From positions 1 through 50,445 of the forward strand of contig JACMPX010000014.1 of the NCBI GenBank assembly GCA_014377245.1: DNA of 50,445 bases. Reading direction: 5' to 3'. The notes beneath the pieces were generated by a model. It did no database searches, was not told the origin of the DNA, and saw only the letters and a program-made list of their open reading frames with translations. The stretch comes from Candidatus Altimarinota bacterium (GTDB lineage: Bacteria; Patescibacteriota; Gracilibacteria; BD1-5; UBA2023). The first letter of the stretch is position 1. Each line of letters opens with the position of its first letter. Shown here piece by piece: positions 1 to 50,445 of the stretch. The translations under genes were made by a program, and so were the position numbers.

Positions 1-2410
1 ATGAACTGTTGCTACAAAGATCACTCTCACATCACTCTCCGCACTCGGCCCACTTGCGTATAATAACACAACGGGTGCATTCTCTCTTGCCCTCGCAAAC
101 TCCACTACGACAGGAGCCCTCTCAGCTACAGATTGGAATACCTTTAATAATAAACTCTCCAATAGTCTCACCAATGGGAATATCTGGATCGGTAATGCAT
201 CAAATATTCCAACCGCTCAGTTATTATCAGGGGATGCGACACTTTCGAATACTGGACTTTTCACCATAGGAACTGGTGCCGTGACCTCTACTAAAATACT
301 CAATGGTACACTTCTCTTTGCTGATATTGCTTCCAATGGTTGTTTAACAGGTGAGATATTTAAATACAATGGTACATCGTGGATATGTGGAACAGATCTT
401 TTGAATTGATTGATTGGTACTATAGACTCAGTAGCTAAATCTGTGAATGGTGCAGTATACTCAGGATCTAACCTGATCCTCCAAACAGCAGATGCGACAA
501 ATCCAGGACTTGTATCGACTACGGCCCAGACATTTGCAGGAAATAAAACCTTCTTAAATAATGTCACGATCAATGGTTCTCAGACAATTACTACAAGTAC
601 GATCGCTAATCTCGCAACTGGTGGTACAATCGGAACAGCGGTAGCGACTGTTGATGTATTCACAACATTCAATGTCAATCAGACCACTGCAGATCAGACA
701 ATCACTCTCCCGACTCCTACAGTAACTATAGCGGGTAAGATGGTCTATGTGAACAATATCGGTAGTGTCGAGTTCATCATGGTAGGTTCCCGCGTGAGAG
801 GCAATACGGGTAGATCATTCATCTGGAATGGTACTGCATGGTCTCTAGTGGGAGACTCCAATGATCAGAGTCAGATAATCGTCAGGAAAACAGCAGATCA
901 GACCAATGCGACAGCGACTCTCGCCAATGATACACAACTCACGATGAATATCGGTGCCAATGAGCAATGGGTTATCCAATATAATCTCAGTAGCAATGCA
1001 CAAGCAAATGCAGACTTCAAGTTTGCAGTAACTGCACCAGCAGGAGCAACTTGTAGTGTATCAGCGTACGATCCAGAAGGTGCTACCGCTCAGGCAAATA
1101 TCGGTTGTGGAGTAGCATCAGGACTGATTGCAGCAAGTGGACTCGATGATCCAATCTGGGTCAGTGCAGTCGTCACCAATGGTGCAACGGCAGGGACAGT
1201 CAATCTCCAATGGTCAGAGTTCACCGTGAATGGTGTTGCTACTATTCGTCAATGAAGTAATCTCATAGCATACCGTATCCGTGGAGCTGATCTTGCTGAG
1301 GTGTACTATACGAGTGATACCACCATTCAGGAAGGAGATCTTGTTTCTCTCGCAGGTAATGGAGTCTCTCAAGTTCAGAAATCGATTCGTGCCTATGATA
1401 GTCGGTCTCTTGGTATTATCTCGACCAAGCCAGGTATCGTTATCGGTGCAGCAGATGGTACTGGCAAACCAGTCATCGTGGGTCTCTCAGGTCGTGTACC
1501 AGTCAAGATCTCAACCAAAAATGGGGATATCAATCCAGGTGATTATATCACGACTTCTGATATATCAGGTGTTGGTATGCGAGCAACTCGTGCAGGTCAC
1601 GTCATCGGTAAGGCACTCACAGGATTCGCAGGTGGATCTGAAGGGATAGTTATGGTATTCATCCAAAATACTTACTTCGATGGAGTCTACGATGATGTGA
1701 TCACACCTCTTACTAATACCGCAACAGGTATACTCAAAACAGATAGCATGATCACTACATCAACCTATAGTGTACCAGGCCCTTCTCTTATTAGTTCTCC
1801 AGTGGTCACGACATCGACTCCGACTCCTCTCGTCCCAATATCTCAGAGCATAGCCAAGAACGATGCTGACTACCTTGCAGCACTTGCGAGCACTGCCCGT
1901 GACGTACAAGAGAAAATTGTTGCAACTATCATGACAGGTGTACATCTCATCCGAGACCTAGTCGTCCTCCAGATCACTGCTCTGAATGGATACTTCGATC
2001 AAGTATGGACACGAGAGACACACACAGAGAAAATCTGTGTCGGTACAACAGGTAATGAGACCTGTATAACCAAGGATCAACTCGATGCTCTCATCCGTAT
2101 GTCAGTGACAGCGAGTGGGACAATGTCGAGTACTATTCCAGTGATTCCAGCAGTGACAACTCCGGTTGTACCAACTACCACTACAGTAACTCCTAAGACT
2201 AGCACCACAATAGTAGCCACTCCGACAGAGACGACTCCCATATCGACAGTAGTAGAAACAATAGTTACCACAAATTCAGTTATCGCGAGTCCTCCGCTGA
2301 CTGAGGGTACTTGAGTTATAGGGGTTATCGCTCCTGTGACCGAGAGTACTCAGACTCCAGTAGTCATTGACGGAGTTCCAACTGAGTCAGTTATGATCAC
2401 CACGCCATAG
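1..2410 (+). CDS. Secreted fibre-like surface protein, 3' part (5' end outside window)
   Basis: The frame is open from base 2 to a TAG at 2408-2410, reading TGA as Gly at 2, 404, 1253 and 2312. The N-terminal visible part is low-complexity beta-type sequence rich in Thr, Asn, Gly and Ser, with patterns such as ATDWNTFNNK that resemble tail-fibre and CPR adhesin repeats. Around 1280-1690 lies a conserved-looking module (RGADLAEVYYTSD, then GRVPVKISTKNGDINPGDY) that recalls the C-terminal part of large CPR exported proteins. Near 2030-2100 is a segment with two cysteines (KICVGTTGNETCITKDQL). The last ~80 residues are a Thr/Val/Pro-rich tail. Role in attachment is inferred from composition. I saw no phage genes nearby, so a phage tail fibre is less likely. 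Confidence 0.75.
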
Positions 2411-2435
2411 TCCCAGAGTTCTAAATTCAACACTC

Positions 2436-2476
2436 AAAAAAATTCCCCAATCGAATAATTCAGAGAGGGGATTTTT
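2436..2476. terminator. Hairpin terminator between convergent genes
   Basis: An A-rich arm with TTCCCC (2436-2448) pairs with GGGGATTTTT (2467-2476). It lies between the convergent 3' ends of the fibre gene and the minus-strand gene at 2489, so it could serve both. Confidence 0.6.
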
Positions 2477-2488
2477 GATGATAGATGA

Positions 2489-2839
2489 TTATTTCTGAGT
2501 TGGAGATACAGGAGTAGTTGTACCACTACCATCCTTTATGACTCCTGCTTTTTTGAGACAATCGACACTATAGAGTGATACTGCTTTCCCACTTCCGTAT
2601 GAAACTGGTACCTCATTTTTACAGCCTTCTTGGTATTGTTTTTCCATAACGATTCCGAGATCAGTGATCGCTTTCTGGTATCCAGCAGCCTGTCCCTGAT
2701 TAGCACCATTCACGAATACATCATTATTTATCTTATTGACGACTGATGGATAGATACTATCTACAACTACATAGAGAGTTGAGAGCACGAGCCAAGAATA
2801 CAGAAGACCAGTTTGCCAATCTTTGACATATGTTTGCAT
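2489..2839 (-). CDS. Small single-pass membrane/exported protein, unknown function
   Basis: The ORF is 116 aa with start MQTYVKDWQTG and a TAA stop. One hydrophobic segment near the N-terminus (GLLYSWLVLSTLYVVVDSIY) looks like a membrane anchor or uncleaved signal. The remainder is soluble, with two cysteines (QEGCKNEV and VDCLKK) that could form a disulfide outside the cell, and a Thr/Pro tail. An upstream in-frame start at 2914 would add a Lys/Tyr-rich stretch translated from AT-rich DNA that looks like promoter; I chose the downstream ATG. No TGA occurs in frame. I do not recognise the family. Confidence 0.6.
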   Translation of the reverse strand: MQTYVKDWQTGLLYSWLVLSTLYVVVDSIYPSVVNKINNDVFVNGANQGQAAGYQKAITDLGIVMEKQYQEGCKNEVPVSYGSGKAVSLYSVDCLKKAGVIKDGSGTTTPVSPTQK

Positions 2840-2963
2840 ACTATAGGGGGTAAAAATATATACCAATTTAGTATATCTTTTTTTATAAATTTTCCACTTT
2901 TTTTTGCAAAGCATATTTACTATAATTATATAGTATGTATGATAATAGATCTGATTGAGATTT

Positions 2964-3212
2964 TTATGAATATATGAGCTTCAGTTTCTCATCTTTTGAC
3001 AGTTGTTTGATGGCATATTCTCGCCTGCATGCCTCGCTACGGTCTGAGAATTCTTCAAAATATATGAGCTCTACAGGACGACGATTCTTTGTATATTTTG
3101 CTCACTTTTTATTATCAGTGTTATGCTCTTGAGTACGTCGATGGAGATCAGTAGTGATACCTGTGTAGAGGGTCGAGTCAGCACAGCGGAGGATGTAGGT
3201 AGAGTAATGCAT
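2964..3212 (-). CDS. GIY-YIG endonuclease superfamily protein (UPF0213/YhbQ-like)
   Basis: This 82-aa gene (TAA stop) is complete only if TGA is Gly. It begins MHYSTYILRCADSTLYTG, a GIY-YIG core variant, followed by ITTDLHRRTQEHN. The TGA codon supplies the Gly of KKGAKYTKNRRPVELIYFE, which in this family is normally a glycine, and the C-terminus matches the family's EYAIKQLSKDEKLKLI pattern. Length is typical of YhbQ-type single-domain proteins. The family is thought to act on DNA structures or in repair, but its cellular role is poorly defined. It lies 41 bp downstream of the ABC-F gene across a terminator. Confidence 0.9.
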
Positions 3213-3225
3213 ATGAGTAGTATAT

Positions 3226-3253
3226 AAAAAATTTCCCAAAATGGGAAATTTTT
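3226..3253. terminator. Perfect hairpin terminator after the ABC-F gene
   Basis: AAAAATTTCCC and GGGAAATTTTT flank a 5-nt loop, directly after the minus-strand ABC-F stop codon and before the GIY-YIG gene. The stem is symmetric, with A and T tracts on either side. Confidence 0.8.
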
Positions 3254-4729
3254 CTACTCCAACTCCAGATATTCATCGATTCGTACTTGCCATACGAACT
3301 CATCGATATGTGATACCATGATCATCGTGCCTTGGTATTCATCGAGTGCCTTCGCAATTACTGGTAGGTGTCGAAAATTGATGTGATTCGTTGGCTCATC
3401 GAGTATCAGCAGACCTGGCTTTTCGAGCGAGAGTTTTGCAAACATCACGAGTCACTTTTGTCATTCTGAGAGAGCTCCGATCGGTGTTGCCATGAGTTCG
3501 CCAGTGATGAGAAATCCAGATGCAAATGATCTGAGTTCCCGATCGAGTGCGGTTCGGCCTGATGCCTCAAAGAGACAATCGAATACGGTCTGAGAGAAGT
3601 CAAGTGTCGAGAAATCCTGACGATAGTATCCTATTTTGACGTTTGGTCCTATTTTCACACCCTTAGCCGTACCTTTTGCGATCGATTCCAGGAGTGTAGA
3701 TTTCCCGATACCGTTGGGTCCTGAGAGGAGTAGGTGTCTATTTTTCCCGAGTGATACGGATACTTCTTTTTCGACCGCCACATGATTGCGGATAATCTGA
3801 AGACTCGTGATCTCGATGATCTGACCACCGATACCTTCCTGATTCGGTATTTTGAATTCTCGGATGGTCTTATCTTCTCTTCTGATATCACCCTTTGATG
3901 CTTCGAGGGATTCTGCTTTTTCGACCATTTTTTTCGCTACGGCTCGGAGTTTACCTCACTTGTGAGCAAATACGTTGGCCTGGTCCTTGTTCGTTTGGAT
4001 TTCTTTTTCTAGTCGGCTATTTTCTCTATTCTGGGACTCGATTTTGCGCTCTACTTGTTCGACAGCATCATGATAGTTCCCCATGAATTGTTCGACCTTG
4101 CGGGTGAACACATCGAGATAGAGGATCCCATCTGTGAACTCGTTCAGGAACTCAGCGTCATGCGAGATCACGAGTACTGTCTTTGGGTAGTTTTTCAGGA
4201 ATTCAGTCAGGTGATAGACGCCATCAGTATCGAGATTGTTTGTTGGCTCATCGAGTAGGAGGATATCTGGATCCTGGATGAGAGCTCCAGCCAAGAGGAG
4301 TCGAGCCTGTTGCCCTCATGAAAAAGTCCTGACTACACGATTCAAGAAGTCAGCAAATACGATCTCTTTTGCAGGAACAAAATTCACAGCAGAGAGTGCC
4401 TCTTGGATATCTCGGTCGATATTGTGAGAGTCACTACGGGAGTACTTGCGGAAGTAGTCTGAGAGGGTGAGTTCTTTGTCTTCAGGATGCATGACCTGAC
4501 GAGCGATCGCTATATGGTTGCCTGCATTCATGAGTATTCTTCCATCATTTACTTTGTATTCGCCCGTGATCATCTTGAATATAGTCGACTTACCAGCACC
4601 ATTTTGACCCATGAGGGTGATCTTGGACCCCTCTCGTACGGAGAAACTAGTTTCATCAAGGAGCCACTTGGGTGTCACATATCAGTAGGTGACCTCATCA
4701 AATCGGATAACAACATCTCACTTGGACAT
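3254..4729 (-). CDS. ABC-F family ATPase (translation-associated)
   Basis: The protein is 491 aa, start MSKGDVVIRF and TAG stop, with two ABC cassettes on one chain and no membrane segments. The first cassette has Walker A GQNGAGKST, signature FSGGQQAR and Walker B LLLDEPTNNLD. The second has GPNGIGKST, LSEGQKG and LLILDEPTNHI. The cassettes are joined by a charged coiled-coil linker. TGA supplies the first Gly of FSGGQ and the Gly residues in SEGQKG, which are near-invariant positions. ABC-F proteins bind the ribosomal E site and act in translation or antibiotic protection; which subtype this is cannot be decided here. A -10-like TATATT sits 7 nt before the ATG and no Shine-Dalgarno motif is visible. 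Confidence 0.92.
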
Positions 4730-4830: not shown

Positions 4831-4906
4831 TGGTGGGAACGCCGGGATTTGAACCCGGGACCATCGCCTTAAAAGGGCGTTGCTCTACCAACTGAGCTAC
4901 GTTCCC
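4831..4906 (-). tRNA. tRNA-Lys (TTT anticodon), CCA encoded
   Basis: It is 76 nt and folds as a cloverleaf. Acceptor arms GGGAACG and CGTTCCC pair, the D-loop region is GCTCAGTTGGTAGAGC, the anticodon loop is CTTTTAA (anticodon TTT), and the T arm contains GGTTCAAATCC. The 3' CCA is encoded in the DNA. The outermost anticodon-stem pair (27-43) is an A-A mismatch, leaving four strong G-C pairs. No glycine tRNA with a TCA anticodon, which the code change needs, lies in this window. Confidence 0.95.
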
Positions 4907-5036: not shown

Positions 5037-8000
5037 ATGAAAATCTCTCAATTTTTCTCGTACATCCCATTCCAAAAAACTATTGCCGCAGTCCTCGTCA
5101 TGATGATCCTCGTATCACAGACGATCCATGTGGATTTTTTTGATAGTGTTCTCGCAGGGCCAGAGAACTATAGAGATATCGTATCTATCGTGGTAGATCG
5201 TGATACCTACGCAGCTGAGAGATCTCGAGTTCTCCGGTATGCGGGGGATATTGCAGGGTATCTCGGGTGAGTTCGAACATCGATACTCGTCGTTGCAAAA
5301 GATACTCCAGTTGCAACTATAGCAACCAAAAATGAGAAACTCTACTATGAAGGTGATAGTGAAAAATGAGTCTCATCACTCGTATGAACTATTCTCATCG
5401 GCAATATCCCTATTCCCATCGTAGAAAAGGATGGAGCCAATTTCTCGAGTCTCTATCCATATGTAGACTTCGCAGATAAGTCATTCGTCTATGATCCGAG
5501 TAGCACGCGGTATATATATCAAAAAAATTCTTGATTAACAGAAGCTGTTGATATCTGGCATGGCGTCATCAATCCTGCAGTTGGGCGGAGCTGGTCAGGT
5601 GCTCTCGATATACGCCAGATAGGACAATTCCTCGATAAGACCCATGAATTCTATACCAAGAGTGGCAAATTCGCACCATCCAATATACCCCCAAAAGTAT
5701 TTTATTATGACTGATTTAGTGAGTCAAAAAGTATCAATGCTCGTAGTCTATTTCAGTATACTCTCACTATGAAAAATGCTGAGAATATTGCCTATTCTCG
5801 ATTTACCAAATACCTCTTACGTGATGTCACCAAGGCTCTCACTACATTCGATAAAACAAACGAAGATCCAGATATCGCATCTACATTTGCCTCTCTTGGA
5901 TTGCCAACTGGTGGAGATACACTTGCTGAGGATCAGATTAGCAAGCTCCCAGATATACAATCTCGAGATGTGATATTGTGATTTTTGAAGAATTTTAAGT
6001 GAATTTTTAATGAAAAATCTCTCTGAGATGAGCTCCTATCAGTCCACAATGCTGGTAGATACACTAGTTGATCTACAGTAAAAGCAGATCTCTTGCCTAT
6101 ATCTATCAGTGTCATGGATGAGATAGCTCGTAGTACTCTCCGTGAAGCAAATAATGCTATAGAGAAACAGATTGATACTCTGTTGATCGATCAGAAATAT
6201 GCTCGACGTATCCCTATTCTCGATGAGATATCACTCTGAAGTGGCACTACTGATCGCAATAGTCTCCATATGAGTATATTACAGAACTATATGTTCGGTA
6301 AAAAGAGTACAGAGATCAATGATCCACTTCAGTGTACTATTGCTCGTGGATCGACTGGCACTATTACAGAATTTGGGAGATCTCAGCTCGTGGAGGCTAA
6401 TGTCGCATTTGATATTTCGAAAACCGAGTCTCAGATCGAGACACTCAAAAAAGATACAGAACTCCTTATATGATTGAAAAAACCAAATTGTTTTCCAAAT
6501 AGTAAGCCAAGAATAGATTCTTATTGGTGAGGGAATAGTATATTGCGTATAGCTACAGCAACATGAGATCTGAGCGCTATCCTCGACACGTTCCCCACTC
6601 CCACACAGTTCAGCTGATTCACAGCACCGATATACTCCCTCTGAGGAATGAAAGAATCTAATAGATTACCAATCTGATGAGTCAATGATTGTCTCCCTGG
6701 TGGATTGCAATATCTCCTCAGCCCAGCCCGACTGATGACATACACTGAAGATGTATTATCAGGTTATTGAGAATCAGCGGTCGTCATTAGACAAAACTGT
6801 ACTACGGCATATCCGAGTGAGTGGACAACTTGAGTACCAGGAGGTTGTTCACGTCCATCCGTTTTTCTCGGAGCTGAGAGTGCTCCACGATATACCTGTA
6901 TTTCTGATGTAGTAGCTTCGACTGCCATTCCGAGTTTTAGCACTTATGTCACAGAATACTGAACTAGTGTAATTTGAGGTTGTATCAATGGAGCACTGAC
7001 TCTTGATGGTAAATCTATCATGAACAAGTCCAATACCTGTATTACTACCTCATGACCAGCAGATGATCTCATAACTATTGATGAAACTCAATACAAGAAT
7101 GTAATATTTCATACTATCCCATCTCTCTATCATCATAATTCCCCAACTGATGAAGAGATTTTAGCAGCCAAATCCAATACAGTCACCCCATCTCTTCCTA
7201 TAGATATTGAGCGTTACGTTGAGTTTTTTACTCCAAAAGGTAATATTGCTCGTATTCATTATCCGAATTTTTTTGATATTAGAGCCAGTGATATATCCAG
7301 TGCTCGCAACTGGATACGTGATCAAGGTGACCGAGAGTGGCAAGCTATAATAGATCGTGAGCAAGTAACTACAATGAGTCTAGAAGAAACAAAGGTAGCA
7401 GAATTTCTATCTCCTGGAGTATTGCCTACAGTACCTATTGACTGGAATATATATATCTCCGATGAGATGATCACTAAGATTCTACAATCTAGGAACTGGC
7501 TCCAACCTGATATATCAGTAAAATATAGACAAGCTATAGAGTCAATGCTCTCATATTCTAATGGGTCTGGATCTACCACGTCTCCAACAACACTCCCACC
7601 TCAGATCCCAGTTCTTTGAAATGAGTATGAGATTGCATACCTTGGTTTGCCATCTTCTTTTGATGCTGACTTCTCACAATGAAGTAGTAGTAGTGCTATT
7701 ATCAATCAGTACGATACTCGACTGCGGGAGATCGAGTGAGCCAACATATCAGATGAATTGGTTCGAGATGGTTTGATTGAGTCGAACAATCCAGCTACAG
7801 AGTGTGGACCCCCTGACGGTGTCCCTCTTTTACAATGGCCGAGTGCTATCATGTGTTGGATCAAGGCCCAGTTTCCTCCACGTATACTCGCAGGCTCTTG
7901 CTGACCGTCAACAATCGGACTCGATCCGCCTCGTACTTCTCCTCTTGTTTCACCCTGAGATTCTCTCGCAACTGATACTGGTGCGCTTACAGTTTTTTAT

Positions 8001-11000
8001 GCAGGATCACGTCTTATACCGCATCTTCCGAGGTCGAGTATGCAACTTAGCGATAGTATCACAGTTGATTTCACACTACAAAAAGCTGATACAATACTCG
8101 GTAGCCTGCCAGGTACGACCGCATACCTTGAGATTATATCTGGTACGAGCGGTGGTAAAAAAATCGAGAAATCAGATCTCCAAAATTATCTCGATATTTC
8201 ACCAAGTAATCTGACTGTCTGAGAAAAATGAGCAAATTTTGTTCTCATATCTCGCTCCATAGCAGCGAATTTATCACTACGAGCATACTATATCCTCCCA
8301 CTTGCGGGTGGCTGAGAGATACGTATTGATTCTACTCCATTCCAGATACAGATCACACCTGAGTATTATTCACTCAGACTCGAACAGTCATGATCAGTCA
8401 TTGGGAATGTGGACGTCACCTCACCTGATCCTATATGATTGAGTATCTTACCAGTATTTCCTGATGGATCGAGTATCATATTGCCCCCAACAATATCAAT
8501 ACAAATACTAGATGATATCGATAGAACTCTATTATATTCACGTTCTGATGTTGATCCCAATCTCGTAACTCTTCCTACAGATGTAACCAAGAAAGTATGA
8601 GTATATCGGGTACTCATCCGAGATAGTAGGTGAGTGAGCGGTGAGCTGACATTCGGTGTCATATCATGATCACTCAGTCAGATTCGCGTCACCCCTGTAT
8701 CATCAGCACTCGTACGTGGTACGAGTACACTCGCTATGATCAGATTGCTCGATCGTCTCAGCAATCCTACTAGTCCAGACCTCCATACACTTAGGCTCGA
8801 TATATCTGGTGGCTATCTCGTCGATGCTAATGGAGATAAGAAAACAAGCATGAGTATGGATATAATGGAGTCACAGATCCCAGTCATACTTTGATCAGAT
8901 ACAGTTGGTACACTACGTATTACTGCAACAGTAAATGAGACTATTACAAATACTACAGAACTAACTATATATGATACTGCTCGTATTATACTCATGAGAG
9001 ATCGCGATCCTCGTGTCTGAGACGAACCGATATGAGCTCGCATCGAGATACAAGATGCAGCTGGCGTGAGGATGGCAGGACTATCTTCTGTTGTATCATG
9101 GTGACTTCCAGATGGTGCTGGTATATTTTCAAAAAAGTCGATTCGTATAACAGATGGTATCTCTGAGCCATTTGACTATATACCAGGTACAATTGCAGGT
9201 AATCATGCTCTCATGCTCGATGTAGTTGGTATCGGCTCTCTCACGAATATAGTTTTCTCACTGCTACCATGAGACCCCCTCTATACTAATCATAGTATAG
9301 TCGATAATACTATCGTGTTTGCATTGAGAGATCGATATGGCAATATGACTCAATCGAATTTTTCAGCTACAATCTCACGCAATGTATGACCGCTTCAGAC
9401 TATCAATTTCGTGAATGGTGAATATACTCTGCCACTACATTGAGGCTACTATGAGGTAAGTGTACCAAAACTCAAAGATTATAATATATCATATAAAGAC
9501 AGTTCAGGTACATATACAGTAGGAGGTATAGATAAATATATCGCATATATAAAGGGAAATGATGAAAAAATAAACTTTGCTCCTGATTATAATGCTCGCT
9601 ATACTGTTCTAGCAGGTTGATCATTTTTGCGAGAAGGGGAAGATATCCTCTATGGTACAGCGCCTGGACTCTCTCAGAGCCTCGCTGTGAGTACAATTCT
9701 CGATTCTCCGTATAGATATGATACATTTTTGTCTATATTTCCTGGAGGAACATATACTATTGGCAATACTCCTGATATCGCTATCCAAACGAGTATCTCT
9801 CTCGATAACAATATACCGCTTCTCACAGTATCTGATATAACTACCCACAAACAAATAGCTCGTATACTCTATCCGATGAAAAGTGCTCGTCTCGAAACAT
9901 GTCGACAGACACTGACCAATGTATGTAGTCAACCCTCTACTAGTCCCACGATCCGACTCAGTATTCCAACAGGATCTCCTCTCAACACAAAAAGTAATAC
10001 AGATTCTATCATTTTACAGTCCAATAGCCTAGATATATTATCTATATATACTAGTGGGAGTATATATATGAATCCTGATATTACGTTGATTCCTCGTGAT
10101 AATAGCAATATAGGACTCGAGATGGCTGTGATGCAATGAGGCAAGGAGGTTGCGACTATCACCTATATGATGGATAAAACTCTATCAGTTGTGACAACTA
10201 GTGAGATCAATCCGACTACACCAAATAATACTCCTATTATACTAAACTCAGGATACTCTATATCAATTATTCATAATAGCTCACTCTCTAGTAATATTCT
10301 CGGGTACAAGATATGGCGACCAAACAATACCCTCGAGATCGATGAGAATAAAAATGGACCAAATCATACGAACTCACTCGGTATTTTATCAGAACTCCCA
10401 TGAGTTGGATGGGGCAATAATAATACTATGCTACTCGCATATGCTGGGTGAGACACTGTTGGCGAGTCGACTCGATTTTTTCATACGTATTGACTCATTA
10501 ATCTCTGAGACCCTGTAGCACATATCGATCATGGACGACCTGGAACGGAGATCGATGGAATAGATCGGACTGTTGGATCTATTGTTGCTCGCAGTAGTGA
10601 GAAGGGGATTTCTGATTTTTTTCATCGGGATATGGATGCAGATGGTATAGAGGATCTATTGATCGTATATGCAGATGGCTATATTGAGTTATTTCTCAAC
10701 AGATGAGGAAAGTTCAGGTCTCGAGGAATGATTATCTATAATCGAGATATCGATAGTAAAAAAATATCATTTGCAGACTTTACCCATGATGGTTATTCGG
10801 ATATTGTCTGAATAAATTCAACAGGTGGACTCATACTCATCGATAACACGAATCGTAGATTCTCACGTCGTGATATACTCCTTGAGTGAGGAGCAGTTGT
10901 CCCGAATCATATATCACAATTTCATATCTATGATATGGATAGCGATGGTCGTGATGATATCACATATATTACATCAGGGTGAGAACTTGGTATTCTTTAT

Positions 11001-14000
11001 GGTACAATGACGCCTGGAACTTTTATCAAAAAAATACTCGATCCTACACTCTGAATATCTCTTTCTACTACCCCGATACTCATAGGATGAGCTATCAAGA
11101 GTGATCAGACTCCAGTGATCAACTGATCACTCAGTGTGACCCCAACATCGAGCACTACAATAGATGATACCTTACTTCGAGCAGAGGTATACTATCAATA
11201 TACTCAGCCAAATACCACACCATCCGTGATGAGTATAGATGCTGTAACACTCTCATGAGTCTATTCTGATGTATGATCCAATACTATATCGAGTAAGATC
11301 GATACTTATGTTCGTAGTCAATATGCCAGTGCGTATGGACTTGAGATCGAGAAGAAATATGCCAACTTAACACATACAACACTCTATCCAAATGATCGTA
11401 TCAATACTATAATCCGTATCCACAATACGTCTAACAAAACGATGAAGAATGTAGAATATCTCGATACAATTCCCAAGATATTCTCACTAGAGTCAACACG
11501 GAAATACACCATCAAAAAATGAGGTACAAGTGTGTCTCGTGACTTCGAGAATATCTGAGATAATGAATATGATGCTCATTTCGTTGTAGGAGATATAGCA
11601 CCATGAGCCATAGTAGAAATAGGATATGAGCTCATAGCATTGTCTGCGAGTTACTGAGATATGATCGTCGGTGATCTCGAGCGTGGTACGACAGGTGCTG
11701 ATATCTATGGTGATGTAGGATTTCGGACATCTACGACCTGTGGAGCTGAGCTGCTCCTCTGGACATCAGGCCCAGACGCTAGAGAATATACTCGAGGTAC
11801 TCATAATTTTGGATCTATATCACTCCCAGATGGTATAGCTAGTCGACTAACTGATGCTGACAATAACAAGATCCCGGATAGTATAGAGACGATGAGTCGG
11901 GTCGATAGACTAAAAGCGTATGCAGATATGAGTGCAACTAATGGTCCACAAGCACAATCAATCATCAAAACTACCAAAACTGGTAATCAGCTCAATATTG
12001 GATTCGATGAATCCTCTGTGGCAAGTATAGAGGATGTCATCCAGAATCTGGCTAATGGACTCTCTTGTGGATTCGGAGGTGGCTCATGTATGAGCTTCCC
12101 GATTAACTGGGCACCACTTGCACCAGGGAGCTCTCCGACTTTATTTGGTTTACCACTTGCACCCAACTTGATGACTCCATCAGCAGGGTTACCAGTCTTC
12201 TCAGCAATGACAGGTATTCCTGTTTATGGTACATGGTGATGCTTTCCTATACCATCTACATTTCCACCTTCACCGATAGGATTATCTAATACTTGTCTCT
12301 GAAACCTTTCAAGTGCAGGATGAATCCTCTGAACATGGGATCCAACGAATTTCCTCCGTATTTTTGTCACGCCGACTCTGACTCTGGGCATGGGTACCGC
12401 TATCTGTATGTGATGACCGGCCATGGCTATGGGTATGGTACCTCCACCTTGACTCTCACCTCTTATTCAATGAGGTAATTGTATAGTCATGGTGAAGCCT
12501 ATGAATGTGTGTAAGTGAGATGGCTCATCTAGTGATGGTGATGTCAGTGCAGTCTCTGGACTTGGTACTATTAGTGATACATGGAATGCAAGTAGTTGTC
12601 AAATCAAGGCAAATATACTGAGTGAGTCTGACGATCGAAATCTCACAAAGAGTATAGTCAGCTATCTCAAGAGTCCTAATGCCAAGGAGCTCACAACTAT
12701 ATATACTGGTATCAGTAAAAGAGGAGCAAGGTCTATCTCAATATGACCGCGACTCGCTATCGGCTCATCATCAAGTGGAGGATCAGAGATCTCTGTTGAG
12801 GTGGATTCCAATACTCAGATATCAGATATTAGCTCTGTTATAAAACTCAAAAATAAGCGTATTGCTGCGTTCCCAGATTTTATCATGGACTGGTTGACTC
12901 GTCAGACTGAGGAACTCACTACATCACTGTTTACACCGCCGAATCTTACCATCATACCTCCGACGAGTCTCGGGCAGAATGCGCAGTTAGATAGCAGTTT
13001 CGATGACTTCGCGAAGAAGCTCGGATCTGCATACTCGAGTGCAAATTATGAGAATATAAAACAGGGAATAGGTAAGCCAGTTGGTACAAAAACATCTACT
13101 GCTCCTGGCATTCCTGATAGTCTTAAGTGAATAGCATCGAATTCAAAATGAACACTCAATACGCTGAAAACAGCATATACTGAGATAGGAAAACTCCCAT
13201 TTATTTCCATCAAACAAGTCAATATTCCTCTCAATATCCCCTGGTTTGATAAGAGAGAACTCGATCGATATGCGAGATCTCTCGATGGATACCTCAGAGA
13301 TTTAGAGAGTGCTAGTAGGAATCTCTGTATCAGTGATCCATCTGCTGCATGTCTTGATAGAAAAGCGAAACTCCAGTCTGGATGATTCATCACTAGTATT
13401 CGAGAAAACCTCAAACGAATCGAAGAGTATAAACGATTTCCGATGAAGATCCAAAAATATATCACTTGGAAAGAGCGTTATATCGTACAGATTCTCTGCA
13501 ATATCAATAGCATACAGCAGATCACTGGAGGTTGGCTTCGTGATAATGGAGTGAGATTTCGTAAATGGGCTGAGCTATTCGTTCTTATCAAGGCCATTGC
13601 TGATTGATGGCAGCCACTTCTTGATATATTTGCTGATACGAGTGCGACTTGTAGTGTCTGTCGGAATGAGCGCAATAATCTCCAATATTGGAAATTCAAA
13701 CTCCTCTCAATGCTTATCCCATCTATTCCAGTTCTGAAGTTCCCGAAGTGGCCAGATATCGTCTTAGATCTTTCAGATATTAGACTCGGGATTAATATTT
13801 CGATGCCCAATTTTATCCCAAGGATTTCGCCTATCCGACTGCCGAATCTCCCGAATCTATCTATTGGATCAATTGGTGCTTCACTCGATCTCCCTGCTAT
13901 TCCAATTCTCCCTGCACTACCTCCACTCCCAGATCTCCCAGATCTCCCATCACTCCCTCGGATCAAGCTCCCAGATCTCCCACCTCCACCAAAAATACCT

Positions 14001-19811: not shown

Positions 19812-19815
19812 AATC

Positions 19816-40232: not shown

Positions 40233-40267
40233 AAAAAAATCTCTCTCGATTATCGAGAGAGATTTTT
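40233..40267. terminator. Bidirectional hairpin terminator
   Basis: AAAAAAATCTCTCTCGA pairs with TCGAGAGAGATTTTT around a TTA-containing loop. It lies between the convergent dsbA-like and m5C methyltransferase genes and reaches the latter's stop codon, so it probably ends both transcripts. Confidence 0.9.
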
Positions 40268-41774
40268 ATTTGCGACGCCACTCATGCGAGAAAGTATTAG
40301 AGATAATATTTCATTTGCGGTACTCAAGTCAGAGAATCTGTCCCAAATAAATGATGAGAATATACTCATCTGATCCAGATGATTCGATAGTCTCTCATCT
40401 GAGGTATCTATCGATCTCTCCCTCATTTGAGATAATATATTGGATAGTATCGGCCATATCGAGGTATCGCCATGTCCGATTACTCACAACGAATTTGCCG
40501 TGATCTACTACTCATATTTGTTCCCCATATCTCATTAGGAATACTCTCTCTCTGATTTTTTCTCCTATTTCATCATTTCGTAATGCAAGTATTTTGTTCT
40601 CATGTTCATAGAGTGTGACTCCATTCTGACATTGCCATGGAGATATATTTCCGCGAAATAGTCGGAGTTCCTTATTATTCGTTATCTGGAATTTTGGTTC
40701 AGATTTTTTCCATTCATTTCCTGATTTTTCGGATATATCTTGATCTTTAGTATTTTTAGATGACGACAGGAGTGATTTCGTTTTTCGGATTTTTGCTACA
40801 AAAAATCCACCCGTTCCATCGATATGTGGCCAGAACTTTTTCTGGAAAATGATCTCAAACGCATCACCATATTTCTCTGACATTGCTTCTAGGACTCATT
40901 CATTTTCGATGAGATTGAGTGAACAGGTTGAGTATATCATTTCTCCATTTACTTTGAGTGTATGGAGTGCTGCATCGAGGAGCTTGGTTTGGAGTCTTGC
41001 GATTTCTCGGATATTTTTCAGATGCCAGTGTTTCACGGCATCAGTTCCCTTGAATAGAGTTCACTCTCAGCTACAGGGAGCATCGAGGAGCACTCGATCG
41101 AAGAGCTCAATCTGGTGACGATAGAGTTGTCCCGGATAGAGAGTGATACCAATGTTACCATTTCCCATGCGTTCTAGATTCTGGAGGAGTTGTGGGAGCC
41201 TTTCGCGAGTTGGCTCGTTTGCGATGATGAATGAGTTGGGATAGTATTCTGCCAGCTGTGTAGTCTTGCCACCAGGACTCGCTGCCATATCGAGAATCAA
41301 GAAATTTTCTAAAAAACTTGTTTTTTGTTTCTGTCATTCTGTTTTGTCATTCACCGTATTGTTGTATACGATTCATTTTGGTACTCATTCCGCATTCAAA
41401 ATACTTCCTTTTTGAGAAAATTTTTGTTGCTCTAGATGCTTTGTATGATCAGCAAGTATATCTACAGGATGTGCTGCTGCGAGCTCTTGGATATAGAAAT
41501 TCCCGAGAAGATGATCCATAGAAAACCCGAGTCGTCTCTCGAGTGGGTTAAAATCTGCTCTACGATCCATAACAAATACTTCATCAATACTCGTTGATGT
41601 AAGTACCCAACCATCTGTTTCGAGGTTTTTTTTCACTTGCTCCACTTTTCCTGGTTTGATACGAATAGTACGCAGTATTGGTTTTTGTATAGCTGTGAGA
41701 AATTTTTGTAGTTCTGCCTCATTATTCTGGAAACAGTTCTCTCGGAAGTAGGTGATGAATCGATCGTTTATCAT
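40266..41774 (-). CDS. RsmB/RsmF (NOL1/NSUN)-type RNA cytosine-5 methyltransferase
   Basis: The protein is 502 aa with TAA stop. The catalytic domain has the SAM site LDMAASPGGKTTQLA, DRVLLDAPCSGEGTLFKG (Gly of CSGEG from TGA at 41067) and the catalytic cysteine in IYSTCSLNLIENE. The C-terminal 150 residues form an RsmF-like accessory region (KFQITNNKELRLFRGNISPW, FVVSNRTWRYLDMADTI) probably for RNA binding. The enzyme methylates C5 of cytosine in rRNA or tRNA; the exact target cannot be told from sequence. Confidence 0.92.
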
Positions 41775-42097: not shown

Positions 42098-42547
42098 CTA
42101 AAATTGAACTCGATTTTCTCTATCGAGATCTCGTTCTTTGAGGAGATTTTTTTTCTCCCATTTTTTGCGTCATTTTGCGAGAGCAACCCGTACCTTGAAT
42201 ATATTTCCCTTGGAGTAGATGCTCACTGGGACGAGTGTAGCGCTTGTTTCTTTTACTTTTTGTCCGATTCTGAGTATTTCTTTCTTCGACATGAGGATGA
42301 GTCGTTCTCGCTTGGGATCAATTATTATACCAGTACTCCCCTTGTATTCTGATATATGAGAGCCGATAAGGACAGGACGACCAGAGTGGATGGTGATGTA
42401 GGCTCATTTGAGATTGGCACTTCCATTGCGTATGCTCTTGATTTCACCCCCCATCAATACTATCCCAGCCTCGAATTCTTCGATGACTTCATAGTCGAAT
42501 AGGGCTTTTTTGTTCTCGATGATGACTTGGTTTGCTACGATTCACAT
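42098..42547 (-). CDS. smpB: SsrA-binding protein SmpB
   Basis: The protein is 149 aa with TAG stop, unseen under the standard code because its second codon and two later ones are TGA. Motifs: [38 protein letters not shown] (family: GTEVKSLRxGKANLKDSY), [34 protein letters not shown] and [18 protein letters not shown]. SmpB binds tmRNA to rescue stalled ribosomes. The tmRNA gene was not found in this window. The chosen start gives [20 protein letters not shown]. Confidence 0.95.
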
Positions 42548-43266: not shown

Positions 43267-43946
43267 TGTTCTATGAAATAAGGAGATGTCGCTATTGTAG
43301 TATATTTCACTCTTTTGAGCAATTTTTTGATGATTTTTATTTTTTTCTCACTTGGAATATGATCGAGCTCAGGCGAAAATATATCGAGATCGAGATTGAG
43401 TATGCTATTCTTGCTCGGGATATAATCCATATAGCTATCGATCTGATACTCATTCTCTATGCGTACTATATTGCCGATAAGACCACACTCTATCGCAGGG
43501 AGTATATAGTTGCCGACATTGCAAGAGTGATTGGTGAATTCCCATGCATATTGCTCGTCGAGTATTGCTCGATGATGATCGAGGGTGTTCTCATTATCCC
43601 AGAGATCTGAGTGCTCATCGATATGTAATAGTTCGAATCCTGATGTTATTTTTCATTGTCTGATAGCATCTATCCAGAAATATAGGGCATGATTGTGATT
43701 GTCGAATACTACAGTACTCTCATCGAGCCGAACAAAATTCTCAATTCAAATACAGGATCTGAGTTCCTTATTTTCTAATTCTTCGAATGAGATAGTAGAT
43801 CATACTTTCACGTCATCAATCGAGCCACAAATGAGAGCAGGTATCGTGAGAGTAGGGGGCTGTCCATATTTTATTGTTCTATCGTCCCAGGCGAATGCAT
43901 TGTTTCCGAGTTTTTGATTTAGAATTTGCTTATTTGTGTAGTGCAT
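43224..43946 (-). CDS. UPF0489-like protein (arginase-like metal motifs)
   Basis: The protein is 240 aa, start MHYTNKQILNQKLGNNAFAW right after an in-frame TAG, stop TAG. Motifs: VVFDNHNHALYFWIDAI, LLHIDEHSDLWDN, a further AWEFTNHSCNVGNYILPA, and ILNLDLDIFSPE. The HxDxH and DLDxF pairs resemble metal ligands of the arginase/deacetylase fold, and the NHNHALYFW segment is what I associate with UPF0489 (C5orf22) proteins. Function of that family is unknown. Its start overlaps the cytidylate kinase end by 17 bp, so the genes form one unit. Three TGA codons are Gly. Confidence 0.7.
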
Positions 43947-44478
43947 CTATGGCTTGTATTACTAAATTGTATACCTCATCTGGAGTCCGACTACTCGTAT
44001 CGATCACGACATCATAGAGATCCATATCATAGATATGGAGACCATAATACTTCATATACCGATCATTCTCACTCTGACGTCTTATCTCGATATTTACTAC
44101 TGTATGCTCGATTGTCTCATGTGTTTCTATACCTTGGCGTGTTGAATCTGTGAATATCCTATGTGCTGCCTCCAGTGGTGTGACTGTTAGGAATATTTTC
44201 ATAGCATGAGGAATAAAATGAAAGGCGAGACGACCATCAATGATAAAATCATCCTCAACTTTTCCTAAATCCCGTTGTCTATCATCAAGTATAGTATCGA
44301 TGATACTACCATCAGTTTCTGCTTCACGATTGATATCTATGATAGATACTCATCGCTCTAGAGCGAGTCCTCTCATGAAATCTCATGTTGAATATCTCTT
44401 GTATCTATAGTGTTCTGCGAGATGAGCTCCGAGAGTGCTCTTGCCAGCTCCGTGATGCCCGCCAATTGTGATGATCAT
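43930..44478 (-). CDS. cmk: Cytidylate kinase (short archaeal-like type)
   Basis: The protein is 182 aa, start MIITIGGHHGAGKSTLGAHL with a P-loop, TAA stop. STGDFMRGLALERGVS (Gly from TGA in both GD and RG-V) is the NMP-binding segment typical of short CMP kinases; FIIDGRLAFHFIPHAMKIF and the LID-like RRQSENDRYMKYYG follow. The catalytic pattern and length fit type-2 cytidylate kinases that phosphorylate CMP/dCMP. It sits 34 bp downstream of the PBP gene and overlaps the UPF0489-like gene. Confidence 0.85.
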
Positions 44479-44512: not shown

Positions 44513-46384
44513 CTATTGTAGTATCTTCCACTTCTCTATTTCACTCGCTGATATTTTCCCAAAAAAATCAGAGCGGAAATAGAGTCATTCACTGTGTCGA
44601 CTTTTTGGACTTTCAGATTTCTTGGTATAGAGAAGTTCCTTTCGCAGACAAGGAATATCGAGACAGATGGCAATCTGATGGAGTCACTTCGGTGTTGGAG
44701 AAATGTGTGATTTTATAGTTCAATTTTTTATCATGTATTCCGCGATAGCCCTCCAGATCGGTCCAGCACCAGTTACACCCGATACATCGCCCATCGCTGA
44801 TCCATCGCTATTGCCGACCCATACTCCGATGATTGCGTCTGGTGAGTATGATATTGTCCAGTTATCTCGGAAGTCTGTGCTCGTACCAGTTTTTACTGGC
44901 AGGGGTATAGAGGAACCTAGTATGCTAGAGATGCCAAAAGTGCGGGCCCGATTCCTCGGATCAGAGAGTATCTGAGCGATCTGCCAATTGTCCATATCAG
45001 TCATATCAAGTAGTGATCGATAGGCATCGACGATATTCTCCATACTTGTCTCCACGGTTCAGAGGGATATCCCATATCCATAGTATCAAGCATCATGATC
45101 GAGTGAGAGAGTTTTACTTCGCAACGCATCGTAGACTGCAGGTATCCCGAGGCTATCTGTGAGTCTAACGGTAGCAGCATTCAGCGAGTTGCCGAGTGCC
45201 TCACGGAGTCTGATAGGACCATATGATTTCGGATTGTAGTTCTCTGGAACAAAATATTTACCCTCTTCACTCGTCTCATAGCTCGTCTTGTCATCCAGAA
45301 GATAGTCCTCAGAATCAGCTCATTGTTGTAAGGCAAGGAGATAGATAAACGGCTTCAGGAGAGAACCGACGGATCGTCGTCGCACAATCATATCAATCTG
45401 TTCACTTACCTTCGTATTTCCGATATAGGCGAGGATCGTATTTGATACAGGATCCGTGATATAAATGGATGCGTTAGTGACATTTTTTCAATCTAGAGAT
45501 ATGAGTACTCATCTTGCTATGCGGAGTGATTCACGCATGAGCTCTGCATCTATTGTTAGTGTGAGACGTATCTCGCTCATATCGCAGATATTCTCAGGGA
45601 TTTGTGTTGTCCACTTGTTGAGTGTATTTGATTCTCATCCACAATATCGAGATACCTCCTTATCCACTCGCTGAGTGATTAGAGGGAAGAGGTCTATAGA
45701 TGTTCGTGGTTTCTTGTCTTCGAGTTGTATATTGGTTGACTTTTTCCCGATTTTTTCAGCGACTCTTGCTCTATATGCGAGGACCGTATCTCGATTTGAT
45801 TCTGATATATTCGGATACCTAAGTCTCGCTATGATATCGAGAATAGTACTATCATCAGGATTGGCCCCTATTATAGTAGCAATCCCATAGAGACCATTTC
45901 CCATGTAGACAGTCGAGAGATATTGTCTCAGTATCACATCCTTGCTATAGCTATACTCGATAATGATAGCTCCGAGTGCTTCTCTGATTTTCTGTAGTAT
46001 GGTCCGAGTGCTTCTCGGATAATAGGCATTTTTCACGTATTGCTCTGTGATCGTCGATCCACCACGTACGATTTCACCAGCTGATATATTCTGATAGATA
46101 CTCGCGATTTTGGCAGCAGTATTGATACCATAGTGGTCATAAAAGTGAGCATCCTCAACTCGCAATATATTATTGACGAGCTCGCTATCGAGAGATCTAG
46201 AATAAGGGAGAGCATATCCTCCAGCTCTTCATTTGTCCGTAATTGTCTGTCATACTCTATCTCTGAGTATGATGTGTCCGTATGCCGTATTTGGGGTACT
46301 TCATACGGTTTTCCAGACATCTATCACAAAAAATGCGATGAACGCAAATAAGGCAACAGAGATGAGAAATAGGATTTTTTTCAC
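44513..46384 (-). CDS. pbpC: Penicillin-binding protein 1C-like bifunctional transglycosylase/transpeptidase
   Basis: The protein is 623 aa, GTG start (46384), TAG stop. A membrane anchor (ILFLISVALFAFIAFFVIDV) precedes a GT51 domain (RVEDAHFYDHYGI, IVRGGSTITEQYVKN, YLSTVYMGNGLYGI). The transpeptidase has SxxK as GSLLKP, SxN as NSLNAATV and KTG as LPVKTGTSTD. TGA at 44720 reads as Gly and extends the protein by about 70 residues with CLRKELLYTKKSESPKSR, like the BiPBP C-terminal domain of PBP1C. It polymerises and crosslinks peptidoglycan. Linkage to the alpha-2-macroglobulin gene ~10 kb away recalls the pbpC-yfhM pairing in other bacteria. Confidence 0.88.
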
Positions 46385-46984: not shown

Positions 46985-47683
46985 ATGGCTGTTACAAAAG
47001 CAAAAAAGAGTGAACAACTCGCTATCCTCGAGGCTCATCTGAAAGCTGCCACAAGTGTTGCATTCACCTCTAATACTCGAGTCACTGTACTCGAGATCTC
47101 TGCTCTCAAAAGGGATCTCAGAGCTCAAAATGCAATCTATCTCACTGCGAAGAAGACTCTCATCCGTATAGCGTTCAAGTCGGCATATGGTATAGATGTG
47201 GATCTCGCTACTCTCCCAGGTCAGGTCGGTCTCGTTATCAGCAAGGGTGATGCACTCTCTACATTCTCGATTGCTAACAAATATGTGAATGAGTGGAAAA
47301 AAGAAGAGAAGATGCAATTTGTTGCTGGTTATATGGAATGACGTCTCATGGACGCGACCGAGACTGCGAAACTTGCTACTCTCCCATCTCGAGAGGTACT
47401 CCTCGCGAAGCTCCTCGGATCTATGATGTCTCCACTTTCTGGTCTCGCTCGATTCTTCGATGCTGCAGGTAAGGATCTCACCGCGAAGTCTCTTACGAAG
47501 GTGGGTGATCTCGTAGGATCTGGCGCTGCTCCAACTCCAGTTGCTGAGGTTGTACCAGCTCCAGTAGTAGAGGCTCCAGTTTCTGCAGAAGTAGCAGTCG
47601 ATGCTCCACTCGCTGAGGCCATCACAATCGAAGATGCTCCAGTCGCTCATGATACAAAAGTCGAAGATACTCCAGCTGTATAA
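46985..47683 (+). CDS. rplJ: Ribosomal protein L10 (uL10)
   Basis: The protein is 232 aa with TAA stop. Start MAVTKAKKSEQLAILEAHLK is the rRNA-binding region, with VTVLEISALKRDLRAQNA and LTAKKTLIRIAF typical of L10. One TGA (47339) reads as Gly in GYMEGRLMDATE. The conserved part ends near SPLSGLARFFDAAGK. An Ala/Val/Pro/Glu-rich tail of about 60 residues (PTPVAEVVPAPVVEAP) follows that is absent from common L10 of 165-175 aa. L10 anchors L7/L12 dimers to the 50S stalk. The gene is followed by a hairpin and rplL. Confidence 0.95.
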
Positions 47684-47690
47684 TTGTCAT

Positions 47691-47725
47691 CTCGTATGCT
47701 GTCTCCTTCGGGAGATAGTCACGAG
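47691..47725 (+). other. rplJ-rplL intercistronic hairpin with TTCG loop
   Basis: CTCGT pairs with ACGAG, and GTCTCC pairs with GGAGAT closing a TTCG tetraloop. Stable hairpins between rplJ and rplL are known processing or expression-ratio elements in other bacteria; here the role is inferred from position. Confidence 0.6.
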
Positions 47726-47769
47726 GTGAAAATCTCGACAAATATATTTATTTTTTTATTTTTCCTATT

Positions 47770-48144
47770 ATGGCTGACTTATCTAAGAATGCAGAAAAGA
47801 TCATGGAACTCGTAGAGGCCCTCACGATCGTCGAGCTCGCTGATCTCGTATCTGCTATGGAGACCAAGTTCGGAGTGTCTGCTGCAGCTCCTGTAGCTGC
47901 TGCCGGAGCTGTTGCCGCTATTGGTGATGAGGAGAAGACAGCATTCGATGTTGTTCTCACTTCTGCTGGAGCTGCGAAGATCGCGGTTATCAAGGTAATC
48001 CGTGAGATCACAGGTCTGGGTCTTGCTGAGGCGAAGGGTCTTGCTGACAACGGTGGAAACATCAAAACTGGTGTCAAGAAAGATGAGGCTGAGAAAATCA
48101 AGACTCAACTTACTGAGGCTGGTGCAACTGTTGAGATCAAATAA
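47770..48144 (+). CDS. rplL: Ribosomal protein L7/L12 (bL12)
   Basis: The protein is 124 aa with TAA stop. The N-terminal dimerisation domain ([20 protein letters not shown]) is followed by an Ala/Val hinge ([20 protein letters not shown]) and the C-terminal factor-binding domain ([40 protein letters not shown]). No TGA occurs in frame. It is preceded by T-rich DNA without a Shine-Dalgarno motif. It forms the stalk that recruits translation GTPases. Confidence 0.98.
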
Positions 48145-48170
48145 TTATTTTGTCTCAGAGTGTTTCAGGA

Positions 48171-48206
48171 TATAGAAAAACTCCCAAATTTGGGAGTTTT
48201 TCTATA
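48171..48206 (+). terminator. Intrinsic terminator of rplL
   Basis: TATAGAAAAACTCCCA pairs with TGGGAGTTTTTCTATA around a 4-nt AATT loop; very stable and followed by an AT-rich tail, 27 nt after the rplL stop. The remaining gap to 48344 shows nothing else. Confidence 0.9.
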
Positions 48207-48344
48207 TTAAAATTGTATATATCTATTCGGTCAATATCAAATGTATAGACCTACATTGCATTTCTTTCTATATAGAATATCATTTTTTGAGTTTCCTTCT
48301 TTTTATTAGCTAAAAGAAAGTTGAGTAAATCAATAATTCATCAT

Positions 48345-48761: not shown

Positions 48762-48767
48762 AAAAAT

Positions 48768-49322
48768 ATGCTCCAATACATAATCCAACTAGATCAATTT
48801 CTCGTCTTACAGGTATCAATATTTCATACAGAAATATTGGATAGCACTATGATTTTTCTTACGAAAATATGAAATTATTCATTTCTGTGGTTTTTTTTAA
48901 CAATTTTTCTGATCTTGTGGGATCGATATCGATTTATAGGCTATATTTTACTGATCTGACTGAGTACTGATATATTCATTGGAGAGATAATTCTAAAACA
49001 TATTTTCAATAGACTTCGTCCTTTTCAAGAATTAAATGGTATCGTACTCAAGATACCTGAACCCATTACTTCGTCTTTTCCTTCTGGTCATACTAGCGTT
49101 TCCATATGTTTTGCTATTATTTTTACATATTTTTTCTGGATACAAACCAAGTATTGAGTTATAAGTATTTGGATCCTTGCAATTGGTGTGACGCTATCTC
49201 GTTTCTATTTGCAAGTTCACTATCCAACTGATATACTTGCTGGTATAGGTGTAGGAATTATCTGTTCTGTACTCGCTATTTTGCTCTATATACATACATC
49301 CAAGTTCTCGATTTCAAAATAA
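48768..49322 (+). CDS. PAP2-family membrane phosphatase
   Basis: The protein is 184 aa with TAA stop and about five transmembrane helices. The three PAP2 signature blocks are present: KHIFNRLRP (KxxxxxxRP), FPSGHTS (PSGH) and SRFYLQVHYPTD (SRxxxxxHxxxD). TGA reads as Gly at 48871, 48957 and 49158. Such enzymes dephosphorylate undecaprenyl pyrophosphate or phosphatidic acid at the outer face of the membrane. It begins 6 nt after the PLA2-like stop, so a lipid-linked role for the pair is plausible. Confidence 0.9.
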
Positions 49323-49373
49323 TTTTATATAGTTTATTGTTGGAATATTGAGTGTATTTTTTTAGTTTTTGTG

Positions 49374-49379
49374 TATAAT
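49374..49379 (+). promoter_or_regulatory. Likely -10 box of alaS
   Basis: GTGTATAATC places a consensus TATAAT 27 nt before the alaS ATG. The best upstream match to a -35 is TTGAGT at 49348 with a long spacer, so only the -10 is supported. Confidence 0.45.
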
Positions 49380-49406
49380 CGATTTACTACTTTTATATCT
49401 CTATTT

Positions 49407-50445
49407 ATGTTTCCTATTCTCGTCTCCACTATCCGCCAGAAGTATCTTGATTTTTTCCTTTCACATGGTCATGCCATCATCCCATCGGCTCCACTCGTAC
49501 CTGAGAATGATCCCTCAGTCCTCTTCAATACTGCTGGTATGCAACCACTCATCCCATACCTCCTCGGAGAGCCTCATCCATCTGGGAAACGTCTTGCTGA
49601 TGTACAGAAGTGTGTGCGAACTGGAGATATCGATGATGTGGGTGACGATACGCATCTGACATTCTTCGAGATGCTCGGGAACTGGTCTCTCGGGGATTAT
49701 TTCAAAAAGGAATCTATCGAAATGAGCTGGGAATTCCTCACTGATAAGCGTTGGCTCGCTCTCGACCCAGCGATGATATCAGTGACAGTGTTCGAGTGAG
49801 ACGCCAATGCTCCACGAGATGAGGAGTCAGCAACAATCTGGAAGTCTATCGGAATGCCCATAGATCGTATCGCATATCTCCCAGCAGACGATAACTGGTG
49901 GGCAGCAGGTCCGACGGGTCCATGCGGTCCTGATACGGAGATATTTTACTGGATGTGAGAGTGAAAGCCTCCAGCAGGGTCTAATGTCGAAACTGATCCA
50001 AAGAGTTGGATGGAGATCTGGAACAATGTGTTCATGCAATACAATCGAGTTGACGCAAATACTCTCAATACTCTCCCAGCACAGTGTGTCGATACTGGTA
50101 TGGGTATAGAGAGATGTGCTGTAACTCTCAATAAATATGCGAGTGTCTATGAGACAGATTCATTCGCTCCAGTTTTGCAAAAAATAAAAGCCATCGTCTG
50201 AGAAAAGAACTATATCGAGCGGTCAGCTCGTATCATCGCAGATCACCTGCGTACTGCTACCCATATGATTTCAGATGGTGTCACTCCGAAGAATGTAGAT
50301 CAAGGATATATTCTTCGTCGTCTCATACGTAGAGCAATCCGTGAAGCTTACAAGATGGGTTATGAAGAGACTTTTACGCCTGTGATCGTCAGTATGTATA
50401 TCGAGCAATTTGCTCCTATCTATGATAGTGTACGAGATAATGCAG
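49407..50445 (+). CDS. alaS: Alanyl-tRNA synthetase, 5' part (runs off the window)
   Basis: Start [20 protein letters not shown]; the frame is open to the end of the window with TGA as Gly at 49797, 49956, 49962 and 50199. Class II motifs: [57 protein letters not shown] and [10 protein letters not shown], then [14 protein letters not shown] and [17 protein letters not shown]. The editing and C-Ala domains lie beyond the window. The [19 protein letters not shown] segment is typical. An in-frame GTG at 49371 would add 12 residues; the ATG fits the family start better. Confidence 0.97.

Follow-up and report, generated by a model that had tools for sequence, protein, structure and literature searches.

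We consider here the meaning of the codon TGA in a 50,445-nucleotide contig of a Candidatus Altimarinota bacterium (the window, by which we mean this whole stretch of DNA). The window is contig C47 of an assembly (G000) that has 54 contigs, 779,031 bases and a completeness of 80.24%. An earlier note on this sequence had proposed that TGA is reassigned to glycine throughout. The gene set used for counting consisted of 33 hand-picked genes that cover 91% of the window and were translated with TGA as a sense codon. Several gene starts in this list were approximate, and some were later corrected by a few codons (by 16 in the case of PAP2). Two small genes located later, the first two genes in the list below, stand outside the 33-gene count. 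The features of the window are as follows.

1-50445, no strand assigned: the whole window, with TGA a sense codon (glycine) throughout
2489-2839: small gene without TGA
2964-3212: small gene with one TGA
3254-4729, minus strand: ABC-F ATPase with six in-frame TGA, two of them at signature glycines (S-G-GQ, SE-G-)
4831-4906, minus strand: tRNA-Lys (UUU), the sole tRNA gene found in the window
5037-16991, plus strand: protein of 3,984 amino acids with 82 in-frame TGA, whose sole match in Pfam at 1e-3 is an FG-GAP-like repeat
17160-18683, plus strand: Der/EngA GTPase with two in-frame TGA
20250-22190, plus strand: FtsH with five in-frame TGA, codon 255 being at a glycine present in 57 of 60 homologues
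22697-23797, minus strand: MutY with six in-frame TGA; three of the four aligned ones are at glycines of solved MutY (1kg5)
26320-27303: frame of 327 amino acids that by eye resembles the C-terminal half of PriA helicase, lacks the N-terminal part and has no Pfam match at 1e-3
27868-33630, minus strand: alpha-2-macroglobulin-like protein of 1,920 amino acids with 51 in-frame TGA
33691-34392, minus strand: DnaJ-domain protein with seven in-frame TGA, three of them aligned and none of these on glycine
35537-37627, plus strand: UvrC with 16 in-frame TGA, three of them at glycines of solved UvrC
37966-38937, plus strand: TsaD with four in-frame TGA, two of them at conserved glycines (PG-G, -G-GVSAN)
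40266-41774, minus strand: RsmF-like rRNA methyltransferase with ten in-frame TGA; two of the three aligned ones are on glycine (PCS-G-E-G)
42098-42547, minus strand: SmpB with three in-frame TGA; one of the two aligned ones is on glycine (A[KR]-G-[KR])
43930-44478, minus strand: cytidylate kinase-like protein with two TGA; three of its CGG codons entered the test of CGG as arginine
44513-46384, minus strand: penicillin-binding protein (transglycosylase/transpeptidase) with 12 in-frame TGA
46985-47683, plus strand: ribosomal protein L10, with TGA as one of 12 glycine codons
47770-48144, plus strand: ribosomal protein L7/L12 (named by eye), with TGA as none of 11 glycine codons
49407-50444, plus strand: AlaRS, truncated by the end of the window, with four in-frame TGA, two of them on glycines of solved AlaRS

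Translated with NCBI genetic code 25 (table 25), the 33 genes contained 15,352 codons, with 273 in-frame TGA and not a single in-frame TAA or TAG. TGA was present in 31 of the 33 genes and made up 24% of their 1,116 glycine codons, which bears out the earlier claim that genes here are interrupted by TGA only. The other two frames of the same strand had, per 1,000 codons, 15.0 TAA, 17.3 TAG and 30.8 TGA; since TAA and TAG are frequent there, their absence from the genes is not a matter of chance. With TGA as sense, 20 open frames reached a length of 300 codons or more, the longest having 3,996 codons. The standard code left 3 such frames and a maximum of 384 codons, and sense readings of TAA and of TAG gave 5 and 3 frames, respectively. 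The gene ends used were TAA (19) and TAG (13). The earlier note had also pointed out that closed genes invariably end in TAA or TAG; the observation stands, but it is a consequence of how frames are defined under table 25 and has no independent value. Annotated under the standard code, 31 of the 33 genes would be broken up, one of them into 83 pieces; gene calling in such genomes therefore has to use table 25.

An assembly that is incomplete and split into 54 contigs could raise the suspicion that the genes with TGA are pseudogenes in decay, or that the TGA codons are sequencing errors. However, TGA alone interrupts the genes, and the same pattern was found in other assemblies of the group, so that an explanation of this kind is hardly credible.

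The amino acid meaning of TGA was assessed in the columns of an FtsH alignment. The comparison used 80 loci from named genome records, with 60 TGA-free homologues set against 20 TGA-bearing relatives plus the FtsH of the window. The TGA-free rows include four titled Gracilibacteria or Patescibacteria (L058, L061, L073, L074), which possibly use code 25 without having TGA there. Columns were counted if 20 or more of the TGA-free homologues had a residue there, which retained 174 of 190 TGA codons. Glycine was the commonest residue at 139 of these 174 codons and in 40 of the 63 distinct TGA columns, compared to 51 of all 596 columns. The binomial p-values were ~1e-113 for codons and 2e-27 for distinct columns, though the occurrences are not independent, as relatives share columns. 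Tryptophan was the commonest residue in one of the 63 columns. In the FtsH of the window itself, two of the five TGA are in columns that are clearly glycine (35 of 44 and 57 of 60), a third is in a column divided between glycine and asparagine (19 to 19), and the other two are at poorly conserved positions. The 57-of-60 column is the AVA-G-E site, which had been singled out as an invariant glycine. The closest named full-length relatives of this FtsH were from Candidatus Gracilibacteria (84% and 83% identity, with a partial one at 90%), with which the organism groups on this one gene.

Eight further proteins were aligned to solved structures with TGA masked as X, and the letters facing the masked positions in the hits with the best coverage were counted by eye. 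Glycine was found at 15 of the 27 positions, followed by alanine (3), lysine (2) and one each of valine, aspartate, glutamate, histidine, threonine, phenylalanine and methionine. By protein, the glycine counts were 2 of 3 in RsmF, 3 of 3 in UvrC, 2 of 4 in each of AlaRS, TsaD and ABC-F, 3 of 4 in MutY, 1 of 2 in SmpB and 0 of 3 in DnaJ. In UvrC, one further masked TGA was in a gap and two more sites faced other residues in lower matches, while in ABC-F a third glycine appeared in the second match. Tryptophan was observed once, in a lower match at one RsmF site. The motifs that had been read as glycine by inspection held up well: both TGA of the methyltransferase motif PCS-G-EG, as well as those of GGK-G-QL in UvrC and YQ-G-LG in MutY, were on glycine. 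For ABC-F this was true of S-G-GQ and of the first TGA of SE-G-QK-G, but the second faced alanine in the best match. The alignment of TGA sites of FtsH, UvrC, SmpB, TsaD and AlaRS with other bacteria, suggested as a check, thus gave glycine far above background.

Pfam profile scores were compared under alternative readings of TGA. The sum covered 11 families in 8 proteins; DnaJ_C, Methyltranf_PUA and UvrC_RNaseH, which were not listed under every reading, were omitted, and these favour glycine. The alanine, arginine and serine readings were scored on 8 of 10 proteins, without ABC-F and FtsH. The summed score was 1376.4 bits for glycine, 1354.0 for serine, 1353.2 for alanine, 1342.6 for arginine and 1331.3 for tryptophan. 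Glycine gave the best sum. The standard code and the tryptophan, alanine, arginine and serine readings were rejected.

Among these readings, tryptophan, the meaning under NCBI table 4 in Mycoplasma and others, deserves separate mention, since PMC8629427 gives it as the commonest bacterial reassignment of UGA by species count. UGA is likewise a sense codon in code 4 (PMC8629427), but it means tryptophan there, while the conserved TGA columns of the window are mostly glycine. The GIY-YIG domain of UvrC did score 37.0 bits with tryptophan vs 36.8 with glycine. Still, tryptophan had the lowest sum of the five residues and dominated a single FtsH column where glycine dominated 40, and the UCA-anticodon tRNA of the relatives (described below) bears glycine identity elements. 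We therefore regard tryptophan as very improbable.

We searched for the tRNA that could read UGA with a sequence pattern and then with a covariance model, R1, made from 22 sequences, in which 7 of 22 pairs had changed on both sides. At more than 100 bits, R1 found a UCA-anticodon tRNA in 32 of 40 genomes. Among the 32 are G001 and G002, two of the four other genomes of the genus; in the remaining eight of the 40 (G000, G003, G004, G016, G017, G018, G020 and G023) R1 did not find it. Among 117 genomes sampled in the class, R1 passed an E-value of 1e-12 in 13, all of them within the order of the window. The UCA tRNA of the order carries G1-C72, C2-G71, G3-C70 and U73, which are the glycine identity criteria given by Shulgina and Eddy (PMC8629427). 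PMC13293708, citing Campbell 2013, reports that the tRNA of SR1 is charged with glycine, and the UCA tRNA of the order is probably charged with it too.

ARAGORN labels the UCA tRNA of the relatives 'tRNA-SeC', a label we take to rest on the anticodon, and one may ask whether UGA is selenocysteine at some sites. Against this stand the 7-bp acceptor stem and the glycine elements of the tRNA, as well as the wide use of the codon: it supplies about a quarter of the glycine codons, occurs in nearly all genes and falls mostly on conserved glycines of homologues. The probability left to this explanation is negligible.

Class-I release factors (PF00472) were examined in the same 40 genomes. Exactly one was found in 37, and none in G000, G017 and G020. 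The tripeptide PxT marks release factor 1 (RF1), and SPF marks release factor 2 (RF2); all 20 sequences inspected from those 37 genomes had the RF1-type PxT. In the class sample, RF2 was above the cut-off in 80 of the 117 genomes. It was above the cut-off in none of the 15 genomes of the window's order and in none of the 14 of family f13, another family of the class, and it fell below the cut-off in 8 of the other 88 class genomes (G051, G065, G090, G102, G104, G107, G122 and G131).

These counts bear on the idea that UGA has a double meaning (glycine within genes, stop at some gene ends), or that the change of code is still under way. The use of TGA is indeed uneven: its share of glycine codons goes from 0 of 11 in L7/L12 to 51 of 146 in the alpha-2-macroglobulin-like protein and 7 of 8 in one small protein, and rpoB likewise has very different TGA numbers across ten genomes of the order (see below). 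However, uneven synonymous use needs no second meaning, the sampled genomes of the order have no RF2 above the cut-off, and nearly all of the 40 genomes have just one class-I release factor, which was of RF1 type in every case inspected. We consider a double meaning very unlikely, though somewhat less so than tryptophan.

Ribosomal proteins L10 and L7/L12 together (46985-48144) used TGA for 1 of 23 glycine codons, while its use was high in the alpha-2-macroglobulin-like gene (27868-33630). The TGA share of L10 and L7/L12 vs that of the remaining genes gave a Fisher p of 0.024, for a comparison picked after seeing the table.

We also considered the arginine codons CGA and CGG, for the literature suggests CGG as tryptophan in some Gracilibacteria. 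CGA was on arginine in all five FtsH columns with a clear majority. Reading CGG as arginine outscored tryptophan in 6 of 7 Pfam families, and the 3 proteins scored hold 8 of the 41 CGG codons of the window; the exception was Cytidylate_kin2, where CGG as tryptophan lifted the score from 56.6 to 57.4. On the modest evidence of the CGA columns and the CGG scores, CGG as tryptophan was rejected. The window's own genome also has a tRNA-Arg(UCG).

Taken together, TGA almost certainly means glycine in the window, which belongs to an uncultured Gracilibacteria bacterium on NCBI genetic code 25. The glycine meaning is observed directly in the window's genes. In the proposed mechanism, UGA would be decoded as glycine by a dedicated tRNA-Gly(UCA), RF2, which would stop at UGA, would have been lost from the lineage, and RF1 would terminate genes at UAA and UAG. 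We infer that the missing part of the window's assembly holds the same tRNA and RF1.

Several observations weigh against this reading. The UCA tRNA was not found in the window's own assembly (80% complete), where there were 22 tRNA matches, 21 of them confirmed by ARAGORN and none of these with a UCA anticodon; neither RF1 nor RF2 was matched in this incomplete assembly, which cannot itself prove the loss of RF2. No UCA tRNA was found in G003 either, a genome of the same genus that is 93% complete and has one class-I release factor, despite 9 in-frame TGA in its UvrC. Because its UvrC carries these TGA, we read the absence from G003 as an assembly gap, which is unproven; a search of G000-G004 with the DNA flanking the tRNA of G002 gave no match that explains the absence from G000 or G003. 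In the alignments, 12 of the 27 TGA codons of the eight proteins were not on glycine, including all three in DnaJ, and three of the five TGA of the window's own FtsH were outside clear glycine columns. Besides GIY-YIG, some profile scores were higher with other residues: HhH-GPD had 54.2 bits with serine and 53.4 with alanine vs 53.1 with glycine, and Transgly 106.6-106.7 with alanine, arginine or serine vs 106.5. Outside the sum, RsmF_N had 23.4 bits with tryptophan vs 23.2 with glycine, and tryptophan likewise raised the scores of some weak cross-matches of ABC-F and FtsH. Finally, Hanke 2014 (PMC4032931) also reports single peptides with UGA as tryptophan, alanine, aspartate and lysine.

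The assignment is correct and not new, as UGA as glycine in SR1 and Gracilibacteria is already published. Proteomics of a BD1-5 bacterium, as reported in Hanke 2014 (PMC4032931), gave 97 peptides with UGA as glycine, 3 with UGA as tryptophan and none unique to UGA as stop. PMC8629427 inferred UGA as glycine in 13 of 15 Gracilibacteria species, the other two having RF2 and no UCA tRNA. The earlier note was right to name table 25 as the known code: the window agrees with code 25 of Gracilibacteria (BD1-5) in UGA as glycine, UAA and UAG as stops and CGA and CGG as arginine, and its order in having tRNA-Gly(UCA) and no RF2 above the cut-off. We found no difference from that code, although the tRNA itself is absent from the window's incomplete assembly. 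The code of Absconditabacteria (SR1) has in common with the window UGA as glycine and a UCA tRNA with glycine elements. CGA and CGG, however, are predicted as tryptophan there (Shulgina and Eddy, PMC8629427) and read as arginine in the window, so that the Absconditabacteria variant is not supported in the window by these sequence comparisons.

A second type of UCA tRNA was observed in family f13, which is in the same class and outside the window's order. We take f13 to be Absconditabacteria, a name that came from no tool. The UCA tRNA with glycine elements was present in 13 of its 14 genomes, and rpoB had 7 to 75 in-frame TGA in all seven sequences (7/7). The UCA tRNA of the window's order is 79 nt long with CCA, has a 6-bp anticodon stem and lacks GG in the D-loop in all 22 aligned sequences (for example, L173:1501-1579 in G002). 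That of f13 has GG in its D-loop and, judged by eye, an anticodon stem of 5 bp (for example, L218:1504-1577 in G103). The D-loop GG is also present in all 21 tRNAs of the window's own genome. One member of each type, compared with each other, showed 66% identity, which is roughly the distance of either one from the two ordinary tRNA-Gly genes of G000 (57-68%).

Two lineages of one class thus share sense UGA and differ in the UCA tRNA. UGA may have been captured on two occasions, or a single capture may have been followed, in one of the two lineages, by replacement or remodelling of the decoding tRNA; we put this forward as a tentative and rather doubtful proposal. We found no description of the difference in the literature searched, which did not cover the founding papers, and we do not claim that it is unpublished. 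PMC13293708 cites an origin of the code in the last common ancestor, and PMC8406219 describes the SR1 and Gracilibacteria lineages as siblings.

An rpoB tree was built from 33 of 37 genomes searched (G001, G028 and G042 were omitted as split or partial, and G040 gave no match). In this tree the 16 RF2-bearing families, which lack TGA in rpoB, were all on one side of a branch with support 98/96. The window's order, f13 and the RF2-bearing families each formed one group in the tree, which is unrooted and has four rows with unusual letter make-up. Because these are three separate groups in an unrooted tree, it is compatible with one origin of the code, while the sisterhood of the order and f13 is not shown by it.

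In ten genomes of the order (L274, L275, L280 and L284-L290), rpoB contained from 0 to 77 in-frame TGA, and all ten genomes had the UCA tRNA; therefore the use of TGA varies widely after the change of code. With TGA as sense we also observed antisense frames at least as long as rpoB, and choosing the longest frame led to the wrong strand in two genomes (G011 and G012; L280 and L289). Such long antisense frames are a risk for gene callers run on table 25.

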